Positions 6,220 through 23,743 of a stretch of DNA of 64,000 nt are shown one piece after another; position 1 is the stretch's first letter, and every line of letters begins with the position of its first letter. A model generated the notes under the pieces. That model was not told where the DNA came from and made no database searches. It saw nothing but the letters and a program-made list of their open reading frames with translations. Made by a program: the position numbers and the translations under genes. This DNA is from Streptomyces bacillaris (lineage in GTDB: Bacteria; Actinomycetota; Actinomycetes; Streptomycetales; Streptomycetaceae): the NCBI RefSeq assembly GCF_003268675.1, contig NZ_CP029378.1, forward strand, positions 992,001 through 1,056,000, in the 5' to 3' direction.

Positions 6220-6273
6220 GGCGGGCCTACCGTCGGCCGGGTAAGCCACCCCCGACCGACGGAGACGTACGAC

Positions 6274-6969
6274 ATGGCAAAGATCCTTTTCGTAGTGACC
6301 GGCGCGGACCACTGGACCCTGGCCGACGGCACGGCCCACCCGACGGGCTTCTGGGCCGAGGAGGCCGTGACCCCGTACCAGATCTTCACCGGCGCCGGAC
6401 ACGAGGTGGTCGTCGCGACGCCCGGCGGCGTCGTCCCCACCGTGGACCGCGCCAGTCTGGCCCCCGATGTCAACGGCGGCCAGGAGGGCGCGGACAAGGT
6501 GGCGGCCGGGCTGGAGGCGTTCGAGGAGCTGCGGCGGCCGGTCGCGCTGGAGGACGTGGACCCGGAGGCGTACGACGCGGTCTTCTACCCGGGCGGCCAC
6601 GGCCCGATGGAGGACCTGTCGGCGGACCCGGCCTCCGGGCGGCTGCTCACCGAGACCCTGGCCTCGGGCAGGCCGCTCGGCGTGGTCTGCCACGCCCCGG
6701 CAGCGCTGCTGGCCGCCACGGGCCCCGACGGCGTCAACGCGTTCGCGGGCTACCGCCTCACCGGCTTCACCAACACCGAGGAGGACCGGGCGGGCTTCGC
6801 GGACAAGGCGAAGTGGCTGCTCCAGGACCGGCTGGTGGCGCTGGGCACGGACTTCCAGGAGGGCGAGCCCTGGGCGCCGTTCGTGATCACCGACCGGAAC
6901 CTGGTGACCGGCCAGAACCCGGCCTCCGCCGCCCCGCTGGCGGAGGAGCTGCTCAGGCGGATCGGCTGA
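6274..6969 (+). CDS. Type 1 glutamine amidotransferase-like (DJ-1/PfpI) protein
   Basis: A 231-residue cytoplasmic protein of the DJ-1/ThiJ/PfpI superfamily, closest in layout to Hsp31-like members. It opens with MAKILFVVTGADHW and has the insertion typical of the class (GFWAEEAVTPYQIFTGAGHEV). The nucleophile elbow is VVCHAPAALL, with cysteine in the strand-turn-helix, and it ends in a GQNPASA segment normal for the family. Members act as glyoxalase/deglycase-like enzymes, chaperones or stress proteins; which applies here cannot be decided. It has its own ribosome site (GACGGAGACGTACGAC before ATG) and no obvious operon partner. Confidence 0.85.
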   Translation: MAKILFVVTGADHWTLADGTAHPTGFWAEEAVTPYQIFTGAGHEVVVATPGGVVPTVDRASLAPDVNGGQEGADKVAAGLEAFEELRRPVALEDVDPEAYDAVFYPGGHGPMEDLSADPASGRLLTETLASGRPLGVVCHAPAALLAATGPDGVNAFAGYRLTGFTNTEEDRAGFADKAKWLLQDRLVALGTDFQEGEPWAPFVITDRNLVTGQNPASAAPLAEELLRRIG

Positions 6970-8339: not shown

Positions 8340-8371
8340 GCGGCGAAACGTAGCATCGGAGGGAGGGTTTT

Positions 8372-8406
8372 GGCACTGGGTACCTTTACAGAGGGTACTG
8401 AGTACC
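8372..8406. promoter_or_regulatory. Paired palindromic operator in the tetR/etfB divergent promoter
   Basis: GGCACTGGGTACC at 8372-8384 and the perfect palindrome GGTACTGAGTACC at 8394-8406 lie 22 bases apart, matching the double site at 7515-7550 (common form GGYACTGRGTRCC). TAAGGT at 8408-8413 immediately follows and could be the -10 of etfB. A bound repressor would cover both divergent promoters. Confidence 0.7.
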
Positions 8407-8490
8407 ATAAGGTTACCCTTACGAAACCACACCCAGGTGGAACCGGGCCTGATCGGCAGGGACCACACCGAGGTAGGCAGGAGAGCCGGC

Positions 8491-9276
8491 GTGAGCTTGA
8501 GGATCGTTGTCTGTGTGAAGTATGTGCCCGACGCGACCGGTGACCGGCGTTTCGCCGATGACCTGACGGTGGACCGTGAGGATGTGGACGGTCTGTTGTC
8601 GGAGCTGGACGAGTACGCGGTCGAGCAGGCGTTGCAGATCGCGGACGGGGCGGACGGCGCGGAGATCACTGTGGTGACGGTGGGTCCGGAGGACGCGAAG
8701 GACGCGCTGCGCAAGGCTCTGTCGATGGGTGCGGACAAGGCGGTCCATGTCGAGGACGACGATCTGCACGGCACGGATGTGATGGGGACGTCGCTGGTGC
8801 TGGCGAAGGCGGTCGAGAAGACCGGTTACGACCTGGTGATCTGCGGGATGGCCTCGACCGACGGTGTCATGGGCGTCCTCCCGGCCCTGCTGGCGGAGCG
8901 TCTGGGTGTGCCGCAGGTGACGCTGCTGTCCGAGGTCGCGGTGAACGGCGGTGTGGTGAGCGGGCGGCGTGACGGTGACACGGCATCGGAGCAGCTCGAG
9001 GCGTCGCTGCCGGCGGTGGTGTCGGTGACCGACCAGTCCGGTGAGGCGCGTTACCCCTCGTTCAAGGGGATCATGGCGGCGAAGAAGAAGCCGGTTCAGT
9101 CGCTGGATCTGGATGATCTGGGGATCGAGGCGGACGAGGTCGGTCTGGAGGGTGCGTGGACGGCTGTGGACGAGGCGGCGGAGCGGCCGGCGCGGACGGC
9201 GGGCACGATCGTGAAGGACGAGGGTGAGGGCGGCAGGCAGCTGGCCGAGTTCCTCGCGGGCCAGAAGTTCATCTGA
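8491..9276 (+). CDS. etfB: Electron transfer flavoprotein beta subunit
   Basis: A 261-residue FixA/EtfB protein that forms a heterodimer with EtfA. It carries electrons from acyl-CoA dehydrogenases to the respiratory chain. It begins VSLRIVVCVKYVPDATG and has the AMP-binding CGMASTDG...GVLPALLAERLGVPQVTL region. The near-C-terminal signature FKGIMAAKKKPVQSL is typical of EtfB. The GTG start has GGAG about 7 bases before it. Codon use is richer in CGT, GGT and GTG than in neighbouring genes, as in well expressed genes. It is the first gene of etfBA, behind the duplicated TetR-type operator. Confidence 0.95.
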   Translation: MSLRIVVCVKYVPDATGDRRFADDLTVDREDVDGLLSELDEYAVEQALQIADGADGAEITVVTVGPEDAKDALRKALSMGADKAVHVEDDDLHGTDVMGTSLVLAKAVEKTGYDLVICGMASTDGVMGVLPALLAERLGVPQVTLLSEVAVNGGVVSGRRDGDTASEQLEASLPAVVSVTDQSGEARYPSFKGIMAAKKKPVQSLDLDDLGIEADEVGLEGAWTAVDEAAERPARTAGTIVKDEGEGGRQLAEFLAGQKFI

Positions 9277-13572: not shown

Positions 13573-15897
13573 TCATGCCGCGTCGGTGGGCAGCTCCGCG
13601 CGGATCTCCCGCGCGGCGGCGACCAGGTTCTCCAGGGAGGCCCGGGTCTCGGGCCAGCCGCGGGTCTTCAGGCCGCAGTCGGGGTTCACCCACAGCCGCT
13701 CAGCCGGGATGGCCTCAAGCCCCTTGCGCAGCAGGGCCGCCGCTTCCTCGGTGCTCGGGATGCGCGGGGAGTGGATGTCGTAGACGCCGGGTCCGGCCTC
13801 GCGCGGGTAGCCATGGGCGGCCAGTTCGCGGGCGACCTGCATGTGGGAGCGGGCGGCCTCCAGGCTGATGACGTCGGCGTCGAGGTCGTCGATGGCCTGG
13901 ACGATGTCACCGAACTCGGCGTAGCACATGTGGGTGTGGATCTGGGTGTCCGGCCGCACCCCGGAGGTGGCGAGGCGGAAGGACTCGGTCGCCCACTCCA
14001 GGTACGCGGCGTGCCCGGCGGCGCGCAGGGGCAGCGTCTCGCGCAGTGCGGGCTCGTCGACCTGGATCACCGAAGTACCGTTCGTCTCCAGGTCGTTGAC
14101 CTCGTCGCGCAGGGCGAGGGCGACCTGGCGGGCGGTCTCGCCGAGCGGCTGGTCGTCGCGGACGAAGGACCAGGCGAGCATGGTGACCGGCCCGGTGAGC
14201 ATGCCCTTGACCGGGCGCTCGGTGAGCGACTGCGCGTACGCCGTCCAGCGCACGGTCATCGGCTCGGGGCGCGAGATGTCCCCGGCGAGGACCGGCGGGC
14301 GGACGTAGCGGGTGCCGTACGACTGGACCCAGCCGTGCTGGGTGGCGAGGTAGCCGGTGAGCTGCTCCGCGAAGTACTGCACCATGTCGTTGCGTTCGGG
14401 CTCGCCGTGGACCAGGACGTCGATCCCGGCCTTCTCCTGGAAGGAGAGGACCTCGCGGATCTCGTCCTTGATGCGCTCCTCGTACCCGGCCCCGTCGATC
14501 CGGCCGGCCCGCAGGTCGGCGCGGGCGGTGCGGAGTTCGGTGGTCTGCGGGAACGAGCCGATGGTGGTGGTCGGCAGCAGCGGCAGCCCCAGGTGGGCGC
14601 GCTGGGCGACGGTCCGCTCGGCGTACGGCTGGGAGCGGCGGCCGTCGGCGTCGGTGATGGCCGCCGTACGGGCCCGGACGGCCGGGTCGCGGGTGATGGG
14701 GGCGTCGGCGCGGGAGGCCAGGTCGGCCCGGTTGGCGGCGAGTTCGGCGGCGATGGCCTCGGTGCCCTGGGAGAGCCCCTTGGCCAGGGTGACGATCTCG
14801 GTGGTCTTCTGCCGGGCGAAGGCCAGCCAGCGCAGCACCTGCGGGTCGATGTCCTGCTCGGCCGTGGCGTCCAGCGGGACGTGCAGGAGGGAGGAGGAGG
14901 CCGAGACGTCGACGTGGTCCGCGAGGCCGAGGAGCGTGCCGAGGGTGGCGAGCGACTTCTCGTAGTCGTTGATCCAGATGTTGCGGCCGTTGACGACGCC
15001 CGCGACCAGCCGCTTGCCGGGCAGTCCGCCGGCCGCCGCGAGGTCGTCGAGGTTGGCGGCGCCGGACTCGGTGAAGTCCAGCGCGATCCCCTCGACCGGG
15101 GACTTGGCCAGGACGGGCAGGGCCTCCCCGAGCCGCCCGAAGTAGGAGGCGACCAGCAGCTTCGGCCGGTCGGCCAGGGAGCCCAGCTCGCGGTAGGCGC
15201 GGGCGGTGGCGTTCAGCTCGGCCGGGGTGCGGTCCTGGACGAGGGCGGGCTCGTCCAGCTGCACCCACTCGGCGCCCGCGGCCCGCAGGTCCGCGAGGAC
15301 CTCGGCGTACACGGGCAGCACCCGGTCCAGCAGGGTCAGCGGCTCGAAGTCGGCGGCGACGCCGGGGGCCGCCTTGGCGAGCAGGAGGTAGGTGACGGGG
15401 CCGACCAGGACCGGGCGCGGGGTGTGGCCGAGCGCCAGGGCCTCCTTGAACTCCTCGACCTGCTTGGCGGAGTCGGCGGTGAACACCGTGTCCGGGCCCA
15501 ACTCGGGTACCAGGTAGTGGTAGTTGGTGTCGAACCACTTGGTCATCTCCAGCGGCGCCACGTCCTGGGTGCCGCGGGCCATGGCGAAGTAGCCGTCGAG
15601 GGCGTCCGCGTCGACCGCCGCGCGGTGCCGCTCGGGGACAGCGCCGACCATGACACTGGTGTCCAGGACGTGGTCGTAGTACGAGAAATCACCGGTCGGC
15701 ACTTCGTGGACGCCGGCCTCGGCGAGCTGCTGCCAGGTGCCCCGGCGCAGTTCGGCGGCGGTCTGCCGGAGGGTGTCCGCGTCGACGCGGCCCTTCCAGT
15801 AGCCCTCGATGGCCTTCTTCAGTTCACGGTTCTGACCCTGGCGGGGGTAGCCGTACACGGTGGCCCGTGCTGCCGCGGCTGCGGGCTTCGCTGTCAC
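13573..15897 (-). CDS. metE: Cobalamin-independent methionine synthase
   Basis: A 774-residue enzyme that transfers the methyl group of 5-methyltetrahydropteroyltri-glutamate to homocysteine without B12. It opens [34 protein letters not shown]. It has both barrel domains and the zinc ligands of the C-terminal half: HTHMCYAEF (His and Cys) and NPDCGLKTR (Cys). The GTG at 15897 is chosen because AAGGAG lies 6 bases before it; the upstream ATG at 15918 lacks this. The gene lies behind a cobalamin riboswitch and is expected to be shut off when B12 is plentiful and the B12-dependent MetH can work. It is monocistronic. Confidence 0.96.
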
Positions 15898-16075
15898 GTG
15901 ACTCTCCTTCGCGAGCATGTCTCCAGCTGTTCCCGGAACGGAACGCGGACGCGAAGGAGTGACGGATCGGGCGGAAACACGACACGCTGACCGTGTCCGT
16001 CCACCCGACGGTTACGCCGACCCGCCCACGAGGTCACCGGGAACTCCGCACACGAACGGTCGCGTGCGGGCAACG

Positions 16076-16272
16076 GGCAGGTCTTCGGACTCGCGGGCAC
16101 GTCTGCCGGGGGCAGACACCTAGTGGCCGTCGCTTCCCAGACCCGTCCGGGTCCAGTGCGTATGACGGCGGTCGTTCCCGCTCACCGCTGCGGGGCAGTC
16201 CCGGATTCCCACCGGGTTCCCTCTTACGACGCTCCCGTCCGGCTGACGGGGCGAACCAGCTGCACCGGTCAC
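16076..16272 (-). promoter_or_regulatory. Cobalamin riboswitch upstream of metE
   Basis: Read on the minus strand this has the B12-riboswitch core: AGAGGGAACCCGGTG, then GAATCCGGGACTGCCCCGCAG and an internal CACTGG. The conserved TCTGGGAAG and GCCACT elements follow, and the closing GCGAGTCCGAAGACCTGCC ends the aptamer. About 180 bases of leader lie between aptamer and metE; they include a CCGCAC/GTGCGG hairpin (about 16045-16072) that may serve as expression platform. Bases 16273-16548, between the riboswitch and the next plus-strand gene, hold only promoter-like sequence (CATATCAC on the minus strand) and no gene that I can support. Confidence 0.9.
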
Positions 16273-16548
16273 CCTAAGCGGACGACCGCCGGGCGCACAC
16301 CGTTGTTCACACTTCGGACGGTGATATGAGACACGGACTCCGTACGGAGGGCGCCCGGCGGCTTCGGACGGCCCGGATTCCGCTCCTCTTCGCCCGTTCG
16401 CTGACTTCCGGTCAGCTCGTGGTGGCACGGTGACACAGATGTAACCGAATGGCGTAGGCGAGGCGGAACCACAGAGCGTCACAGGCCGTTCTTCTTGCCA
16501 ATACACGGCCGCCGACCCGCGGCGGCGAGGAGAGAAGGGGAGCGCTGT

Positions 16549-16746
16549 ATGAAGAAGACAGTCGGCTGGGCCCAGGACGGCGACGGCTGGACGATCACGG
16601 TGAACGGCACGCAGTACCGGGCCGTGGAGCGCGCCACCGACGGGCGCGTGGACAACTATCTGGTGCGGGGCAACGACCTGAGCGCCGAGTGCCCGAGCCT
16701 CGGCCATGGGCTCGGCCTGATCCGGGCGCACGAGTCCCGGAGCTGA
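16549..16746 (+). CDS. Small hypothetical protein
   Basis: A 65-residue soluble protein beginning MKKTVGWAQDGDGW. It has no signal peptide, membrane segment or known motif that I recognise. The ATG at 16549 is preferred over an in-frame ATG at 16495 because AGAAGGGGAG sits just before it. It faces away from metE and converges on cobF. Function unknown. Confidence 0.6.
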   Translation: MKKTVGWAQDGDGWTITVNGTQYRAVERATDGRVDNYLVRGNDLSAECPSLGHGLGLIRAHESRS

Positions 16747-17694: not shown

Positions 17695-17828
17695 GTCGGC
17701 CGATCATGCCAGGACGGGCCGGCCGGGCCGGGCAGGGGGCGAGGCGGCCACCGCACCGACCAGCACAGGCAGGCCCCCGGCCGGGGCAAGGGGCAAGGGC
17801 GCGCATGTCGGAGCGAGGCGGGGTGGAC

Positions 17829-17851
17829 TTACTAGGACGTCCAACTATATG
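17829..17851 (+). promoter_or_regulatory. Promoter with GGACGTCC palindrome ahead of the second riboswitch
   Basis: The palindrome GGACGTCC (17835-17842), in the context CTAGGACGTCCAAC, is followed at once by a TATAT stretch (17846-17850) that could be a -10 box. Transcription from here would begin near 17858 and run through the cobalamin aptamer into mmsA. The regulator is unknown. Confidence 0.45.
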
Positions 17852-17875
17852 TTCGTGAGCAGAGGGGCGACCGGC

Positions 17876-18057
17876 ATGGTGCCAGGCGCCTCGAAGGCCC
17901 GTGGTGTCAGGGAAGCCGGTGCGATTCCGGCGCGGTCCCGCCACTGTGACCGGGGAGTCCGTCCTCGCAGGACACGCCACTGACGACGAACCAGCCGTCG
18001 GGAAGGCAAGAGGGCGTGCGCTGATCCGGGAGTCAGGATACCGGCCACGGGGATTGT
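17876..18057 (+). promoter_or_regulatory. Cobalamin riboswitch in the leader of the mmsA operon
   Basis: A complete B12 aptamer pattern on the plus strand. It shows GGTG followed by CAGGGAAGCCGGTGCGATTC, then CCCGCCACTGTGACCGGGGA. GCCACTGACGA and TCGGGAAGGC follow, and the aptamer ends GATCCGGGAGTCAGGATACC. Such elements normally turn a gene off when adenosylcobalamin is present. No B12 transport or synthesis gene follows; the next full gene is mmsA, 235 bases on. Confidence 0.9.
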
Positions 18058-18089
18058 TCCGTGTTTCCACGAGGATGGAGCAGACACGC

Positions 18090-18155
18090 ATGGCACCGGT
18101 GCGCACCCACGGCCCCGCAGGCCCGTCCCGGCGAGCGGTTCTCCCCGCCCCCTGA
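18090..18155 (+). other. 21-codon ORF after the riboswitch (leader peptide or gene remnant)
   Basis: An ATG preceded by GGATGGAGCAG opens a 21-codon frame (MAPVRTHGPAGPSRRAVLPA..., stop at 18155). It has a twin-arginine-like SRRAVL near the end. Position and ribosome site are what one expects of the first gene under the riboswitch, but it stops almost at once. It may be a leader peptide or the 5' stub of a lost exported protein. Nothing else gene-like lies between it and mmsA. Confidence 0.35.
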
Positions 18156-18291
18156 CGGCCCCCGCCCTTCGCGTCCCCCCTGGCGGCAGCCCTTCCGCGC
18201 CCCCGTGCACCCGACCGGTGCGTGGGCCGGTGGCAGCCGTGCGCCATCCCCGGATCTCTCCTGACGATCTCACCGACGAGAGCAGGTTTCC

Positions 18292-19794
18292 ATGGTCCGC
18301 GAACTCACCCATTTCATCGGCGGCAAGCACACGCCCGGCGCCTCGGGCACGTACGGCGATGTCTACGACCCCAACACCGGACAGGTCCAGGCCCGGGTGC
18401 CGCTGGCCGGCCGGTCCGAGACCGAGGCGGCCATCGCCGATGCCGCCGAGGCGCAGCGGGAGTGGGGCGAGTGGAACCCGCAGCGCCGCGCCCGGGTGCT
18501 GCTGCGCTTCCTCCAGCTGGTGGAGAAGGAGAAGGACTCCCTGGCCCGGCTGCTCTCCTCCGAGCACGGCAAGACCGTGGCCGACGCGCACGGCGACATC
18601 GCGCGCGGCCTGGACGTGGTGGAGTTCGCGGCCGGTGTCCCGCATCTGCTGAAGGGCGAGTTCACCGACAACGCGGGCGCCGGGATCGATGTCCACTCGC
18701 TGCGCCGGCCGCTGGGCGTGGTCGCGGGCATCACCCCGTTCAACTTCCCGGCGATGATCCCGCTCTGGAAGGCCGCGCCCGCTCTGGCCTGCGGTAACGC
18801 CTTCATCCTCAAGCCCTCGGAGCGCGACCCGTCGGTGCCGCTGCGGCTGGCCGAACTCTTCCTGGAGGCCGGGCTTCCGCCGGGGGTCCTGAACGTCGTC
18901 AACGGCGGCAAGGAGCCCGTGGACACCCTGCTGGAGGACCCGCGCGTCAAGGCGCTCGGCTTCGTCGGCTCGACGCCGATCGCCGCGCACATCTACGCGA
19001 CGGCCGCCGCCCACGGCAAGCGGGCGCAGTGTTTCGGCGGGGCCAAGAACCACATGATCGTGATGCCGGACGCCGATCTCGACCAGGCGGTGGACGCGCT
19101 GATCGGGGCCGGGTACGGCTCGGCGGGCGAGCGGTGCATGGCGATCTCGGTGGCCGTGCCGGTCGGTGAGGCAACCGCCGACGCACTGGTCGCCAGGCTC
19201 ACCGAGCGGATCGGTGAGCTGCGGATCGGCCGCTCGGACGACCCGGACGCCGACTTCGGGCCGCTGGTGGGCCGGGACGCGGTGGACCGGGTGCGCGGCT
19301 ATGTCGACCTCGGTGTCGAGGAGGGCGCCGAACTCGTCGTGGACGGGCGGGACTTCACCCTCGAAGGCCATGAGGACGGGTTCTTCGCGGGCGCCTCGCT
19401 CTTCGACCGGGTCACCCCGGACATGCGGATCTACCAGGAGGAGATCTTCGGGCCCGTGCTCTCCGTGGTCCGTGCGGCGGACTACGAGGAGGCGCTGCGG
19501 CTGCCCTCGGAGCACGCGTACGGCAACGGCGTCGCCCTCTTCACCCGTGACGGCGACATCGCCCGCGACTTCACCCGCCGCGTCGACACCGGGATGGTCG
19601 GCGTGAACGTGCCGATCCCGGTGCCGGTGGCGTACCACACGTTCGGCGGCTGGAAGCGCTCCGGCTTCGGGGACCTGAACCAGCACGGACCGGACGCCAT
19701 CCGCTTCTACACCCGTACCAAGACCGTCACTTCGCGCTGGCCCGCCTCCGGGATCCGGGACGGTGCGAGCTTCACGATTCCGACCATGGGATGA
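18292..19794 (+). CDS. mmsA: CoA-acylating methylmalonate-semialdehyde dehydrogenase
   Basis: A 500-residue aldehyde dehydrogenase that turns methylmalonate semialdehyde (or malonate semialdehyde) plus CoA into propionyl-CoA (or acetyl-CoA). It is the last step of valine breakdown. Signs are PLGVVAGITPFNFPAMIPLW, the Rossmann FVGSTPIAAHI, AQCFGGAKNHMIVMPDAD and the catalytic cysteine in GYGSAGERCMAIS near residue 284. MMSDHs carry this GGAKNH motif, unlike ordinary aldehyde dehydrogenases. It is the first full gene of the valine operon behind a cobalamin riboswitch and ends in an ATGA overlap with the next gene. Confidence 0.93.
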   Translation: MVRELTHFIGGKHTPGASGTYGDVYDPNTGQVQARVPLAGRSETEAAIADAAEAQREWGEWNPQRRARVLLRFLQLVEKEKDSLARLLSSEHGKTVADAHGDIARGLDVVEFAAGVPHLLKGEFTDNAGAGIDVHSLRRPLGVVAGITPFNFPAMIPLWKAAPALACGNAFILKPSERDPSVPLRLAELFLEAGLPPGVLNVVNGGKEPVDTLLEDPRVKALGFVGSTPIAAHIYATAAAHGKRAQCFGGAKNHMIVMPDADLDQAVDALIGAGYGSAGERCMAISVAVPVGEATADALVARLTERIGELRIGRSDDPDADFGPLVGRDAVDRVRGYVDLGVEEGAELVVDGRDFTLEGHEDGFFAGASLFDRVTPDMRIYQEEIFGPVLSVVRAADYEEALRLPSEHAYGNGVALFTRDGDIARDFTRRVDTGMVGVNVPIPVPVAYHTFGGWKRSGFGDLNQHGPDAIRFYTRTKTVTSRWPASGIRDGASFTIPTMG

Positions 19795-20945
19795 CCGCTG
19801 TGACCACCCTGCTCAGCGACGACCAGCTCGCGGTCGTCGAGACCACACTCGACTTCGCCCAGGAGCACCTGGCCCCGCACGCGGTGGCCTGGGACCAGGA
19901 GAAGCACTTCCCCGTCGACGTCCTGCGGAAGGCGGCGGACCTCGGTCTCGGAGGTGTGTACGTACGGGAGGAGGTGGGCGGCTCCGGGCTGTCCCGCTCC
20001 GACGGGGTCCTCGTCTTCGAGGCCCTGGCCACCGGCTGCCCGTCGGTCGCCGGGTACCTCTCGATCCACAACATGGTCGCCTGGATGGTCGACCAGTACG
20101 GCACCGACGCCCAGCGCGCCCGGTATCTGCCGGAGCTGTGCACCATGGAGCAGCTGGGCAGTTACTGCCTGACCGAGCCGGGCGCGGGCTCCGACGCGGC
20201 GGCGCTGCGCACCCGCGCCGAGCGCGACGGCGACCACTACGTCCTGACGGGGACGAAGCAGTTCATCTCCGGGGCGGGCGCCACGCACCTCTACATCGTG
20301 CTGGCCCGCACGGGCGACAGCGGTCCCGGCGGGATCTCCGCGCTCCTCGTCGAACGGGACGACGCGGGGCTCTCGTTCGGGGCCAACGAGAAGAAGATGG
20401 GGTGGAACGCGCAGCCCACCCGGCAGGTCATGCTCGACGGCGTGCGCATCCCGGCCGACCGGATGCTGGGCGCCGAGGGCGAGGGCTTCCGGATCGCGAT
20501 GAACGGCCTCAACGGCGGCCGACTCGGCATCGCCGCCTGCTCGTTGGGCGGTGCGCAGAGCGCGCTGGACCGGTCCCTGGCCCATCTCGCGGACCGGGAG
20601 GCGTTCGGGGCCCGGCTGCTGGAGGCGCAGGCGCTGCAGTTCCGGCTGGCCGACATGGCGACCGAACTGGCCGCCGCCCGGGCACTGGTGCGGCAGGCCG
20701 CCGAGGCGCTGGACCGGAAGTCGCCGGGGGCACCGGAGTTGTGCGCGATGGCCAAGCGGTTCGCCACCGACACCGGGTACGCGGTCGCGGACCGGGCGCT
20801 CCAACTCCACGGTGGCTACGGCTATCTCTCCGAGTACGGCATCGAGAAGATCGTCCGGGACCTGCGGGTCCACCAGATCCTGGAAGGGGCCAACGAGATC
20901 ATGCGCGTCATTGTGGCCCGGAGTCTGACGGGAGCCCTGCGATGA
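19791..20945 (+). CDS. Acyl-CoA dehydrogenase (likely isobutyryl-CoA dehydrogenase)
   Basis: A 384-residue FAD enzyme that makes a 2,3-enoyl-CoA and passes electrons to EtfAB. It has YCLTEPGAGSDAAALRTRA and GTKQFISGAG in the middle domain. The C-terminal YGYLSEYGIEKIVRDLRVHQILEGANEIM contains the catalytic glutamate (in LEGANE), as in isobutyryl/short-branched enzymes. The context (mmsA upstream, HIBYL-CoA hydrolase and HIBADH downstream) points to isobutyryl-CoA as substrate. ATGA overlaps join it to both neighbours. The etfBA pair at 8.5 kb could be its electron acceptor. Confidence 0.9.
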   Translation: MTAVTTLLSDDQLAVVETTLDFAQEHLAPHAVAWDQEKHFPVDVLRKAADLGLGGVYVREEVGGSGLSRSDGVLVFEALATGCPSVAGYLSIHNMVAWMVDQYGTDAQRARYLPELCTMEQLGSYCLTEPGAGSDAAALRTRAERDGDHYVLTGTKQFISGAGATHLYIVLARTGDSGPGGISALLVERDDAGLSFGANEKKMGWNAQPTRQVMLDGVRIPADRMLGAEGEGFRIAMNGLNGGRLGIAACSLGGAQSALDRSLAHLADREAFGARLLEAQALQFRLADMATELAAARALVRQAAEALDRKSPGAPELCAMAKRFATDTGYAVADRALQLHGGYGYLSEYGIEKIVRDLRVHQILEGANEIMRVIVARSLTGALR

Positions 20946-22009
20946 CCGAGGAGCACGTCGTCGTCCGCACCGAGGGGCGTACGGGGGTGGTGACCCTGAA
21001 CCGGCCCAAGGCGCTCAACGCCCTGACCCACGACATGGTCGGGACGGTCGCGGCGGCCCTGGACCGGTGGGAGCACGACCCGGAGGTGGCCACGGTCGTC
21101 ATCACCGGGGCCGGGGAGCGCGGCCTGTGCGCGGGCGGCGACATCCGGTCCATCTACGAGGACGCCCGCGCGGGCGGCAAGGCGTCGGCGGCGTTCTGGC
21201 GCGACGAGTACCGGCTGAACGCCCGGATCGCCCGCTATCCGAAGCCGTACGTGGCCGTCATGGACGGCATCGTGATGGGCGGCGGGGTAGGTGTCTCGGC
21301 GCACGGCAGCGTCCGGATCGTCACCGAGCGGTCGAAGGTGGCCATGCCGGAGACCGGGATCGGCTTCGTGCCGGACGTCGGGGGTACGTATCTGCTGGCC
21401 CTGGCCCCCGGGGAGCTGGGCACCCATCTCGCCCTGACCGGGGCGGTGGTGGGGGCCCGGGACGCGCTGCTGTGCGGGCTGGCCGACCACTTCGTACCGG
21501 CGGACGAGCTGCCCGCGTTCCTCGCCGCGCTGCGGACGGAGGAGGTCCCCGAGGTGCTGGGCCGCCACGTCCGGGAGGCGCCCCCCGGGACGCTGGAGGC
21601 CGACCGGGCCTGGATCGACCACTGTTACGCCGCCGACACGGTCGAGGAGATCGTGGAGCGGCTGCTCGCCTCCGACGCCCCGGCGGCCGGTGAGGCGGCG
21701 AAGACGGTCCTGGGCCGTTCGCCCGTCGCGCTCAAGGTCACCCTCGCCGCGCTGCGCCGGGCCCGTGAACTCGGGCCGCTGGAGCGGGTGCTGGAGCAGG
21801 AGTACCGCGTCTCGTACGCGGCGCTCTCCTCCGCCGATCTGGTGGAGGGCATCCGGGCCCAGGTGATCGACAAGGACCGTACCCCCCGCTGGACCCCGGG
21901 GACCCTCGTGGAGGTCACGGAGGCGGACGTGGCCCGGTACTTCGCACCGACCGGCGACGGGGAACTGGTCCTCGCCGCAGCCGACTCACCGCAGGAGGTG
22001 CCCTGGTGA
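20942..22009 (+). CDS. 3-hydroxyisobutyryl-CoA hydrolase (crotonase fold)
   Basis: A 355-residue crotonase-family protein, longer than enoyl-CoA hydratases, as HIBYL-CoA hydrolases are. It has [13 protein letters not shown], then GERGLCAGGDIRSIYEDAR. GIVMGGGVGVSAHGSVRI and the catalytic MPETGIGFVPDVGGTYLL follow, and the long C-terminal helical extension is present. It releases 3-hydroxyisobutyrate from its CoA ester, the step before the dehydrogenase encoded next. It overlaps its neighbours by ATGA and by 4 bases. Confidence 0.88.
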   Translation: MTEEHVVVRTEGRTGVVTLNRPKALNALTHDMVGTVAAALDRWEHDPEVATVVITGAGERGLCAGGDIRSIYEDARAGGKASAAFWRDEYRLNARIARYPKPYVAVMDGIVMGGGVGVSAHGSVRIVTERSKVAMPETGIGFVPDVGGTYLLALAPGELGTHLALTGAVVGARDALLCGLADHFVPADELPAFLAALRTEEVPEVLGRHVREAPPGTLEADRAWIDHCYAADTVEEIVERLLASDAPAAGEAAKTVLGRSPVALKVTLAALRRARELGPLERVLEQEYRVSYAALSSADLVEGIRAQVIDKDRTPRWTPGTLVEVTEADVARYFAPTGDGELVLAAADSPQEVPW

Positions 22010-22937
22010 CCACCACCACGACCGTCGCGTTCATCGGCCTCGGCCACATGGGCGGCCCGATGGCCGCCAACCTCGTCCGGGCCGGATACCGGGTGCTCGG
22101 CCACGACCTGGTGGAGAGCTGTCTGGCCGCCGCCGAGGAGAGCGGGGTGGAGCGGGCGAAGTCCGCCACGGAGGCGGCCGCGGTGGCCGACGTGGTGATC
22201 ACCATGCTGCCCGCCGGCCGCCATGTCCTCTCCCTCTACGGGCAGGAAGGGCTGCTCGAAGCGGCCCGCCCCGGCACGCTGTTCGTCGACTGCTCCACCA
22301 TCGACGTGGCCGACTCCCGCGCCGCCCACGCGGCAGCGGCGGCGACCGGTCACCGCTCGCTGGACGCCCCCGTCTCCGGCGGGGTGGTGGGCGCCGAGGC
22401 GGGCACGCTCACCTTCATGGCCGGGGGCGAGGAGACCGCGTTCGCGGCGGCCGAGCCACTGCTCTCCGTGATGGGGAAGAAGGCGGTGCACTGCGGCGGG
22501 GCCGGTGCCGGGCAGGCGGCGAAGATCTGCAACAACATGATCCTCGGCGTCTCGATGATCGCCGTCAGCGAGGCGTTCGTCCTCGCCGAGAGCCTCGGCC
22601 TCTCCGACCAGGCGCTGTACGACGTGGCCTCGGCGGCCTCCGGCCAGTGCTGGGCCCTCACCGTCAACTGCCCCGTCCCCGGCCCGGTCCCGACCAGCCC
22701 GGCCAACCGCGACTACCGCCCCGGCTTCGCCGCCCCCTGATGGCGAAGGATCTCGGGCTGGCCGCCAACGCCCTGCGCGCGGGCGGCATCGACGCCGAAC
22801 TGGGGCTCAAGGCAGCCGAGTTGTACGCCCGGTTCGCGGAAGGGGCCGGGGCGGACCAGGACTTCTCCGGGATCGTCCGCGCGATCCGGGCCGCTTCGTC
22901 GCAGACCACCGAAACGCAGGAAGGCACCCCCGCATGA
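22006..22937 (+). pseudogene. mmsB: 3-hydroxyisobutyrate dehydrogenase, split by a frameshift
   Basis: The frame from the GTG at 22006 gives 244 residues with the NAD motif FIGLGHMGGPMAANL, the substrate motif DAPVSGGVVGAEAGTL and the catalytic lysine in GQAAKICNNMI. It runs through [12 protein letters not shown] and then stops (22738-22740). The normal continuation, [22 protein letters not shown]..., about 65 residues, is in another frame, 22740-22937. One extra C in the CCCCC run just before the stop would rejoin them into a full enzyme of about 310 residues. Either a real one-base deletion or a sequencing error fits. The layout TGATG would also allow the second piece to be translated by coupling. 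Joined, the enzyme oxidises 3-hydroxyisobutyrate to methylmalonate semialdehyde, the MmsA substrate. Confidence 0.85.
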
Positions 22938-23743
22938 GCGAGCACGACGACACCCCCGCCACCCCGGGTCCGTACGGGACGATCCTGGTCGAGCGCCGGG
23001 GCCGTACGGCCCTGCTCACCCTGAACCGCCCCAAGGCGCTCAACGCGCTGAGCCTGGAGGTCATGCGGGAGACGGTGGAGGCGGCCGAGGCGCTGGACCG
23101 GGACCCGGATGTCGGCTGCATCGTCATCACCGGCAGCGGTGAGAAGGCGTTCGCGGCGGGGGCGGACATCAAGGAGATGCAGCCGCAGAGCTACATGGAC
23201 ATGTACCTCAGCGACTGGTTCACCGCCTGGGACCGGCTCGGCCAGCTCCGGACCCCGACGATCGCCGCCGTACGGGGCTACGCCCTGGGCGGGGGGTGCG
23301 AGCTGGCGATGCTCTGCGATCTGGTGATCGCCTCGGAGTCGGCCGTCTTCGGGCAGCCGGAGATCCGCCTCGGGGTGATCCCCGGCATCGGCGGCTCCCA
23401 GCGGCTGACCCGGGCGGTCGGCAAGGCCAAGGCGATGGACCTCTGTCTCACCGGCCGGAACATGGACGTCCAGGAGGCGGAACGGGCCGGGCTGGTCTCC
23501 CGGATCGTCCCGGACGCGGAGCTGCTGACGGAGGCGCTGGCGGTCGCGGAGACGGTCGCCGGGATGTCGGCGCCGGTCGCGATGATGGCGAAGGAGGCGG
23601 TGAACCGTGCCTTCGAGACCACGCTCGCGGAGGGCGTCCGCTTCGAACGCCGCCTGTTCCACGCGGTGTTCGCGACGGCCGACCAGAAGGAGGGCATGAA
23701 GGCCTTCACCGAGAAGCGGCCCGCGGAGTTCACCCACCGCTGA
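22934..23743 (+). CDS. echA: Enoyl-CoA hydratase
   Basis: A 269-residue crotonase-fold hydratase. It has [16 protein letters not shown], then [15 protein letters not shown], which forms one half of the oxyanion hole. [16 protein letters not shown] carries the first catalytic glutamate and [16 protein letters not shown] the second. It ends in a standard FTEKRPAEF tail. In this operon it would hydrate methacrylyl-CoA to 3-hydroxyisobutyryl-CoA. The ATG overlaps the end of the preceding (frameshifted) mmsB, and a strong terminator follows. Confidence 0.93.

Follow-up and report, generated by a model that had tools for sequence, protein, structure and literature searches.

A conserved cobalamin riboswitch ahead of the mmsA operon of Streptomyces and its possible role in a B12-free acyl-CoA route

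A cobalamin (vitamin B12) riboswitch before a gene for (methyl)malonate-semialdehyde dehydrogenase (MMSDH) was reported in 2022 in Streptomyces griseus, where it precedes SGR_RS05925 with valine genes downstream (PMC8914203). The accessible sections of that paper describe premature termination of the leader transcript in vivo in the exponential phase and read-through in the stationary phase, and call the connection between riboswitch and MMSDH unstudied. Here, a leader of the same family in front of the same gene, mmsA, with valine genes downstream, was analysed in Streptomyces bacillaris (assembly GCF_003268675.1). The window is a stretch of 64,000 nucleotides (NZ_CP029378.1, positions 992,001 to 1,056,000, forward strand) and positions are numbered from its first letter unless another locus is named. 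The same sections of the S. griseus study contain nothing on conservation, origin, an upstream open reading frame (uORF), or a link to icmA or prp, all of which are added here, together with the reading of the operon as a bypass. As far as the literature searched shows, the conservation, the single origin, the uORF, the palindrome shared with icmA and the prp link are new; no publication was found under the exact phrases combining a cobalamin riboswitch with MMSDH or a riboswitch with the propionate shunt.

Three further systems resemble parts of this locus. The riboswitches of metE and nrdAB (Sun et al. 2013, PMC3766115) place B12-independent substitutes under OFF control, and both occur in the genome studied here. 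Their targets are one-step isozymes, whereas the mmsA operon encodes a five-step pathway. B12-free isozymes form one class in the cobalamin-regulon survey (PMC3766115), in whose text, as searched, neither a propionyl nor a methylmalonyl pathway appears. In Mycobacterium tuberculosis, metE and ppe2 are preceded by a B12 aptamer and a translated uORF, and ppe2 expression requires translation of that uORF (PMC11260477); the Streptomyces leaders differ in having 83-174 nt between the uORF stop and mmsA. Finally, the propionate shunt of Caenorhabditis elegans comprises equivalent activities and is repressed by B12 (PMC4951191), but it is eukaryotic, controlled at transcription, and uses a 3-hydroxypropionate dehydrogenase of another family.

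The order of a B12 aptamer, a 21-codon open reading frame and the mmsA operon, first proposed in a sequence-only reading of the window, was confirmed, and the coordinates are given in Table 1. The covariance model RF00174 was matched from end to end (model 1-189) at 94.2 bits against a gathering score of 31.5 (E 3.7e-22), which places the element in the cobalamin riboswitch class, and only the uORF lies between the aptamer and mmsA. The 7.89 Mb genome contained eight RF00174 matches above threshold. The other targets examined were metE, nrdAB, cobN, the cobD/cbiB operon and two genes for B12-type periplasmic binding proteins, and the mmsA operon is the odd member beside this otherwise usual B12 regulon.

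When 101 Streptomyces genomes were searched with the leader DNA, 14 relatives aligned over the aptamer, the spacer and the start of mmsA, with identities of 69-91%. With an mmsA identity of at least 85% as the threshold, 43 of 394 Streptomyces species carried the operon. Within the limits set by contigs, fetched stretches and score thresholds, all 43 had the five-gene order, and all were scanned for the riboswitch, which was found in 42 (one a weak 47-bit match). Adding ten more Streptomyces, four further genera of the same family and a genus from a different family gave a wider set of 68 operons, 62 of them with the riboswitch. In the mmsA tree these 68 operons formed one branch (support 100) that held all 62 riboswitch operons, and the riboswitch label required five changes, consistent with one gain and a few losses. 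The neighbourhoods of the operon varied across genomes, so the pair appears to be kept for its own sake. The link that the sequence-only reading had called unexpected is thus supported: it is real, conserved and apparently under selection. In one unusual leader (G231, L111/L087) the distance from the riboswitch to mmsA is about 750 nt rather than about 230. Another genome (G012, L067) carried two cobalamin riboswitches (6263-6433 and 8368-8500) with no mmsA nearby, one of them closely resembling the mmsA riboswitch. A loose regular expression for the B12 box gave too many false matches and was dropped.

The origin of the arrangement may be read from the region 5′ of the aptamer. Of the 70 mmsA upstream regions aligned, 66 contained the 16-bp near-palindrome ACTAGGACGTCCAACT with one mismatch or none, those of riboswitch-free operons of the clade among them, and degenerate copies were detected 40-105 bp before mmsA in Rhodococcus, Nocardia, Mycobacterium and Kribbella. 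No riboswitch precedes the sister operons of Rhodococcus and Nocardia. On this comparison the ancestral arrangement is taken to be the palindrome followed by mmsA, and it follows that the riboswitch most likely entered between mmsA and a promoter/operator region that was already there, so that a transcript from that promoter must cross it. Literature matches for the palindrome included only unrelated papers among those listed. Among 35 genomes checked outside the clade, a comparison of match and mmsA positions revealed no riboswitch leading mmsA. In Kribbella, metE is divergent from mmsA at −422 bp with an RF00174 match in between, and this layout, seen in Kribbella antibiotica, is a possible source of the riboswitch. 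The suggestion that a B12 gene was deleted and its riboswitch captured by mmsA was not borne out: the riboswitch-free order is ancestral with no gene between palindrome and mmsA, the riboswitch was most likely gained a single time, and its presence does not require the loss of a B12 gene.

Downstream of the aptamer, a GGAG was present in 62 of 62 leaders and two hairpin motifs in 59 and 57 of the 62. The pairing of these hairpins is predicted; covariation support is absent because the stretch does not vary. In the 58 leaders in which the preceding motif was recognised, the uORF start codon was invariably at the same place, as in uORF-coupled riboswitches of the M. tuberculosis ppe2 type, and translation of the uORF is predicted. 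Its length ranged from 14 to 34 codons, with an N-terminus that mostly read MAPV..H.PG.PA; the S. bacillaris peptide is MAPVRTHGPAGPSRRAVLPAP. The uORF stop lies 136 nt before mmsA here, and stop and start do not overlap. Beyond the uORF, C exceeded G in all 61 leaders compared. The sequence-only reading had pointed to a terminator or a separate mmsA promoter past the aptamer as what would make mmsA insensitive to B12. A consensus scan of 17700-18400 found neither an intrinsic terminator nor a sigma-70-type promoter, although Streptomyces promoters often escape such scans. Inspection by eye revealed no convincing partner for an L5-L13 kissing loop. Together these features suggest that the riboswitch would control uORF translation, with Rho-dependent termination when the uORF is blocked.

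The operon encodes the valine-degradation (mmsAB) family set of MMSDH, 3-hydroxyisobutyrate dehydrogenase, 3-hydroxyisobutyryl-CoA hydrolase (HIBCH), isobutyryl-CoA dehydrogenase and enoyl-CoA hydratase (ECH), and start and stop codons overlap by four bases at each junction. AcdH matched human ACAD8 in the PDB (1rx0) at 475 bits, the next match scoring 294. The mmsB gene is broken near 22690-22740, with 244 aa followed by a second frame, which is either a sequencing error or a true frameshift; in one relative (L053) mmsB is a longer single open reading frame of 311 aa. An inositol cluster of the genome contains an iolA-type MMSDH, and a further HIBCH gene stands apart from the operon (L270, 9546-11111; 65% identical to the operon HIBCH); therefore valine breakdown may not rest on the mmsA operon alone. 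An HIBCH relative was found in 227 of 364 Streptomyces, mostly without the operon.

The B12-dependent counterparts in the genome are MutA/MutB and an IcmA-like mutase, in keeping with the class of B12-independent isozymes. The IcmA-like protein is 566 aa long, has no B12 domain and matched best the large subunit of 2-hydroxyisobutyryl-CoA mutase. From its active-site residues, Phe in FAGF and Gln in AQK, we take it to resemble isobutyryl-CoA mutase. The palindrome in a perfect 22-bp form, TTTACTAGGACGTCCTAGTAAA, ends about 10 bp before this gene in S. bacillaris and in a close relative (G005), where it was the only match with at most four mismatches in the 400 kb examined. In the distant genome G083, icmA was not in the region tried, the position of which was guessed. 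The palindrome common to icmA and the mmsA operon suggests one regulator for both. The icmA-like gene of S. bacillaris lies on one strand with a MarR gene and a DUF3817 gene (G000:C1, about 2254300-2257000; L278, 6305-8996), and there a perfect palindrome of 24 bp immediately precedes it.

The operon was also associated with the B12-independent methylcitrate cycle. Counted over species that are not phylogenetically independent, 23 of the 43 carriers but only 4 of the 351 non-carriers had prpD (Fisher p 1e-21). In 11 carriers the gene lay no more than 15 kb from the operon, and at the loci examined it was accompanied by prpC, prpB and a RamB/PrpR-type regulator. No riboswitch was recognised before prpDBC in the seven loci scanned, where only two RF00174 matches occurred, one of them at metE. 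The metE gene lay within 10 kb of the operon at approximately 17 of roughly 60 loci. At three loci (L306, L307 and L308) prp genes were clustered near the mmsA operon, joined by metE or by the genes for isocitrate lyase and malate synthase, forming a B12-free propionate/acetate island.

On these grounds we regard it as probable, though well short of certain, that the element is a cobalamin riboswitch of the OFF type and that the operon it controls degrades acyl-CoA without B12, bypassing the B12-dependent acyl-CoA mutases. The logic of metE and nrdAB would thereby be extended to isobutyryl-CoA and propionyl-CoA. That the riboswitch-controlled route replaces a B12-dependent one is suggested by the shared palindrome and the prpD association, and the proximity of metE also points to a bypass. 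The sequence-only reading had linked the riboswitch to the operon, which stands. Its rationale, that valine breakdown feeds propionyl-CoA to the B12-dependent methylmalonyl-CoA mutase, would rather predict an ON switch. An OFF switch is puzzling if the operon merely fed that mutase and makes sense if the operon is the B12-free alternative to the mutases.

The proposed course of events is as follows. With B12 plentiful, the aptamer would close the uORF start region, transcription of the C-rich leader beyond the untranslated uORF would end early, probably through Rho, leaving the operon off; isobutyryl-CoA and propionyl-CoA would then pass through isobutyryl-CoA mutase and methylmalonyl-CoA mutase, both B12-dependent. 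With B12 scarce, the mutases would stall, the uORF would be translated and transcription would continue, whereupon AcdH, ECH, HIBCH, MmsB and MmsA would degrade isobutyryl-CoA without B12. In carriers that have the methylcitrate cycle, this would drain the propionyl-CoA formed; alternatively, the same enzymes might take it along the C3 series to acetyl-CoA. One regulator would call icmA and the operon through the shared palindrome, the riboswitch gating the B12-free branch only. The sequences themselves show the riboswitch, the order of the genes, the conservation and single origin, the uORF, the palindromes and the prpD association; we infer the OFF polarity, the part played by Rho, the regulator and the substrates.

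Several observations weigh against this bypass. The growth-phase data from S. griseus, which fit B12 turning mmsA off, are correlative; the palindrome before icmA comes from just two genomes, which are close relatives; the prpD association suffers from the non-independence of the species counted, and prpD is missing from 20 of the 43 carriers, among them S. bacillaris. Six operons of the clade have no riboswitch, and in other genera the riboswitch-free version is an ordinary valine-type operon, so the enzymes are not special.

The strongest alternative, possible in our view but short of an even chance, is that under B12 shortage the operon mainly oxidises propionyl-CoA itself rather than valine, as in C. 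elegans, via acryloyl-CoA, 3-hydroxypropionyl-CoA, 3-hydroxypropionate and malonate semialdehyde to acetyl-CoA. Enzyme families for the five steps of such a shunt occur together as a set, with substrates predicted from family; the shunt genes of C. elegans are B12-repressed (PMC4951191); S. bacillaris has no PrpD, and its separate iolA-type MMSDH and second HIBCH may relieve valine breakdown of the operon. Against it count the closeness of AcdH to isobutyryl-CoA dehydrogenase, the methylcitrate cycle that half of the carriers possess already, the palindrome shared with icmA, which points to isobutyryl-CoA, and the different family of the C. elegans 3-hydroxypropionate dehydrogenase. A combined version is a more tentative proposal: the regulator of the shared palindrome would call two competing exits from isobutyryl-CoA between which the riboswitch chooses, and the same five enzymes would run a bacterial, riboswitch-controlled propionate shunt.

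An improbable alternative is precursor supply, in which low B12 blocks the conversion of succinyl-CoA to methylmalonyl-CoA and the operon makes propionyl-CoA from valine for polyketides and fatty acids. The valine-type enzymes and the polyketide needs of Streptomyces agree with it, and the authors of the S. griseus study raise precursor supply (PMC8914203); the strong association of the operon with the propionyl-CoA-consuming prpDBC genes runs against it. Very unlikely is an ON switch, which would restrict valine degradation to times when the product can be handled by methylmalonyl-CoA mutase. It fits the metabolic rationale of the sequence-only reading, but the other riboswitches of the genome guard the usual OFF-type genes, of which the B12-free isozymes metE and nrdAB count for an OFF switch, and in S. 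griseus expression goes up in the stationary phase as premature termination declines (PMC8914203). A functionless relic of a deleted B12 gene, to which the two riboswitches and cobF close together here might point, is hardly credible and was rejected, given the ancestral arrangement and the conservation of aptamer, hairpin and uORF, at about 70-91% identity, across species in different neighbourhoods.

Upstream of the operon, cobF lies between the riboswitch on the metE side and that of mmsA. Between metE and cobF, a 65-aa open reading frame (16549-16746) without a Pfam match was 82-89% identical in five relatives.

Table 1. Features of the mmsA leader, operon and neighbouring metE region in the window.
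Feature	Position	Strand	Basis and remarks
metE	13573-15918	-	Pfam; neighbour of the mmsA operon
Second cobalamin riboswitch, metE leader	16059..16275	-	RF00174, 87.6 bits; outside the mmsA operon
Operator-like palindromic motif ACTAGGACGTCCAACT	17831..17846	+	Presumed promoter region, 5′ of aptamer; putative function
Cobalamin riboswitch aptamer (RF00174)	17885..18063	+	cmscan 94.2 bits, full length
Putative expression platform	18059..18089	+	Alignment; near-invariant, alternative hairpins, one of which would occlude the uORF GGAG
uORF, 21 codons, MAPVRTHGPAGPSRRAVLPAP	18090..18155	+	ATG 18090 to TGA 18155
C-rich leader, candidate Rho loading stretch	18156..18275	+	48% C, 29% G; putative function
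mmsA, (methyl)malonate-semialdehyde dehydrogenase	18292..19794	+	TIGR01722 MMSDH, 644 bits; best PDB 4e4g
acdH, ACAD8-type (isobutyryl-CoA) acyl-CoA dehydrogenase	19791..20945	+	Best PDB human ACAD8 1rx0
HIBCH, 3-hydroxyisobutyryl-CoA hydrolase	20942..22009	+	NF004127, 464 bits; PDB 4hdt
mmsB, 3-hydroxyisobutyrate dehydrogenase	22006..22937	+	TIGR01692, 331 bits over first 244 aa
Enoyl-CoA hydratase	22934..23743	+	NF004517, 430 bits

If the bypass is true, a new pathway joins the B12-controlled set, and B12 riboswitches would govern a whole B12-free acyl-CoA route besides the substitutes for methionine synthase and ribonucleotide reductase. Each of the main B12-dependent enzymes of Streptomyces would then be paired with a substitute under riboswitch control. 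Bacteria would offer a parallel to the propionate shunt that B12 represses in animals, and the B12 (and cobalt) status of the cell would be tied to propionyl-CoA and methylmalonyl-CoA, the precursors of many Streptomyces antibiotics.
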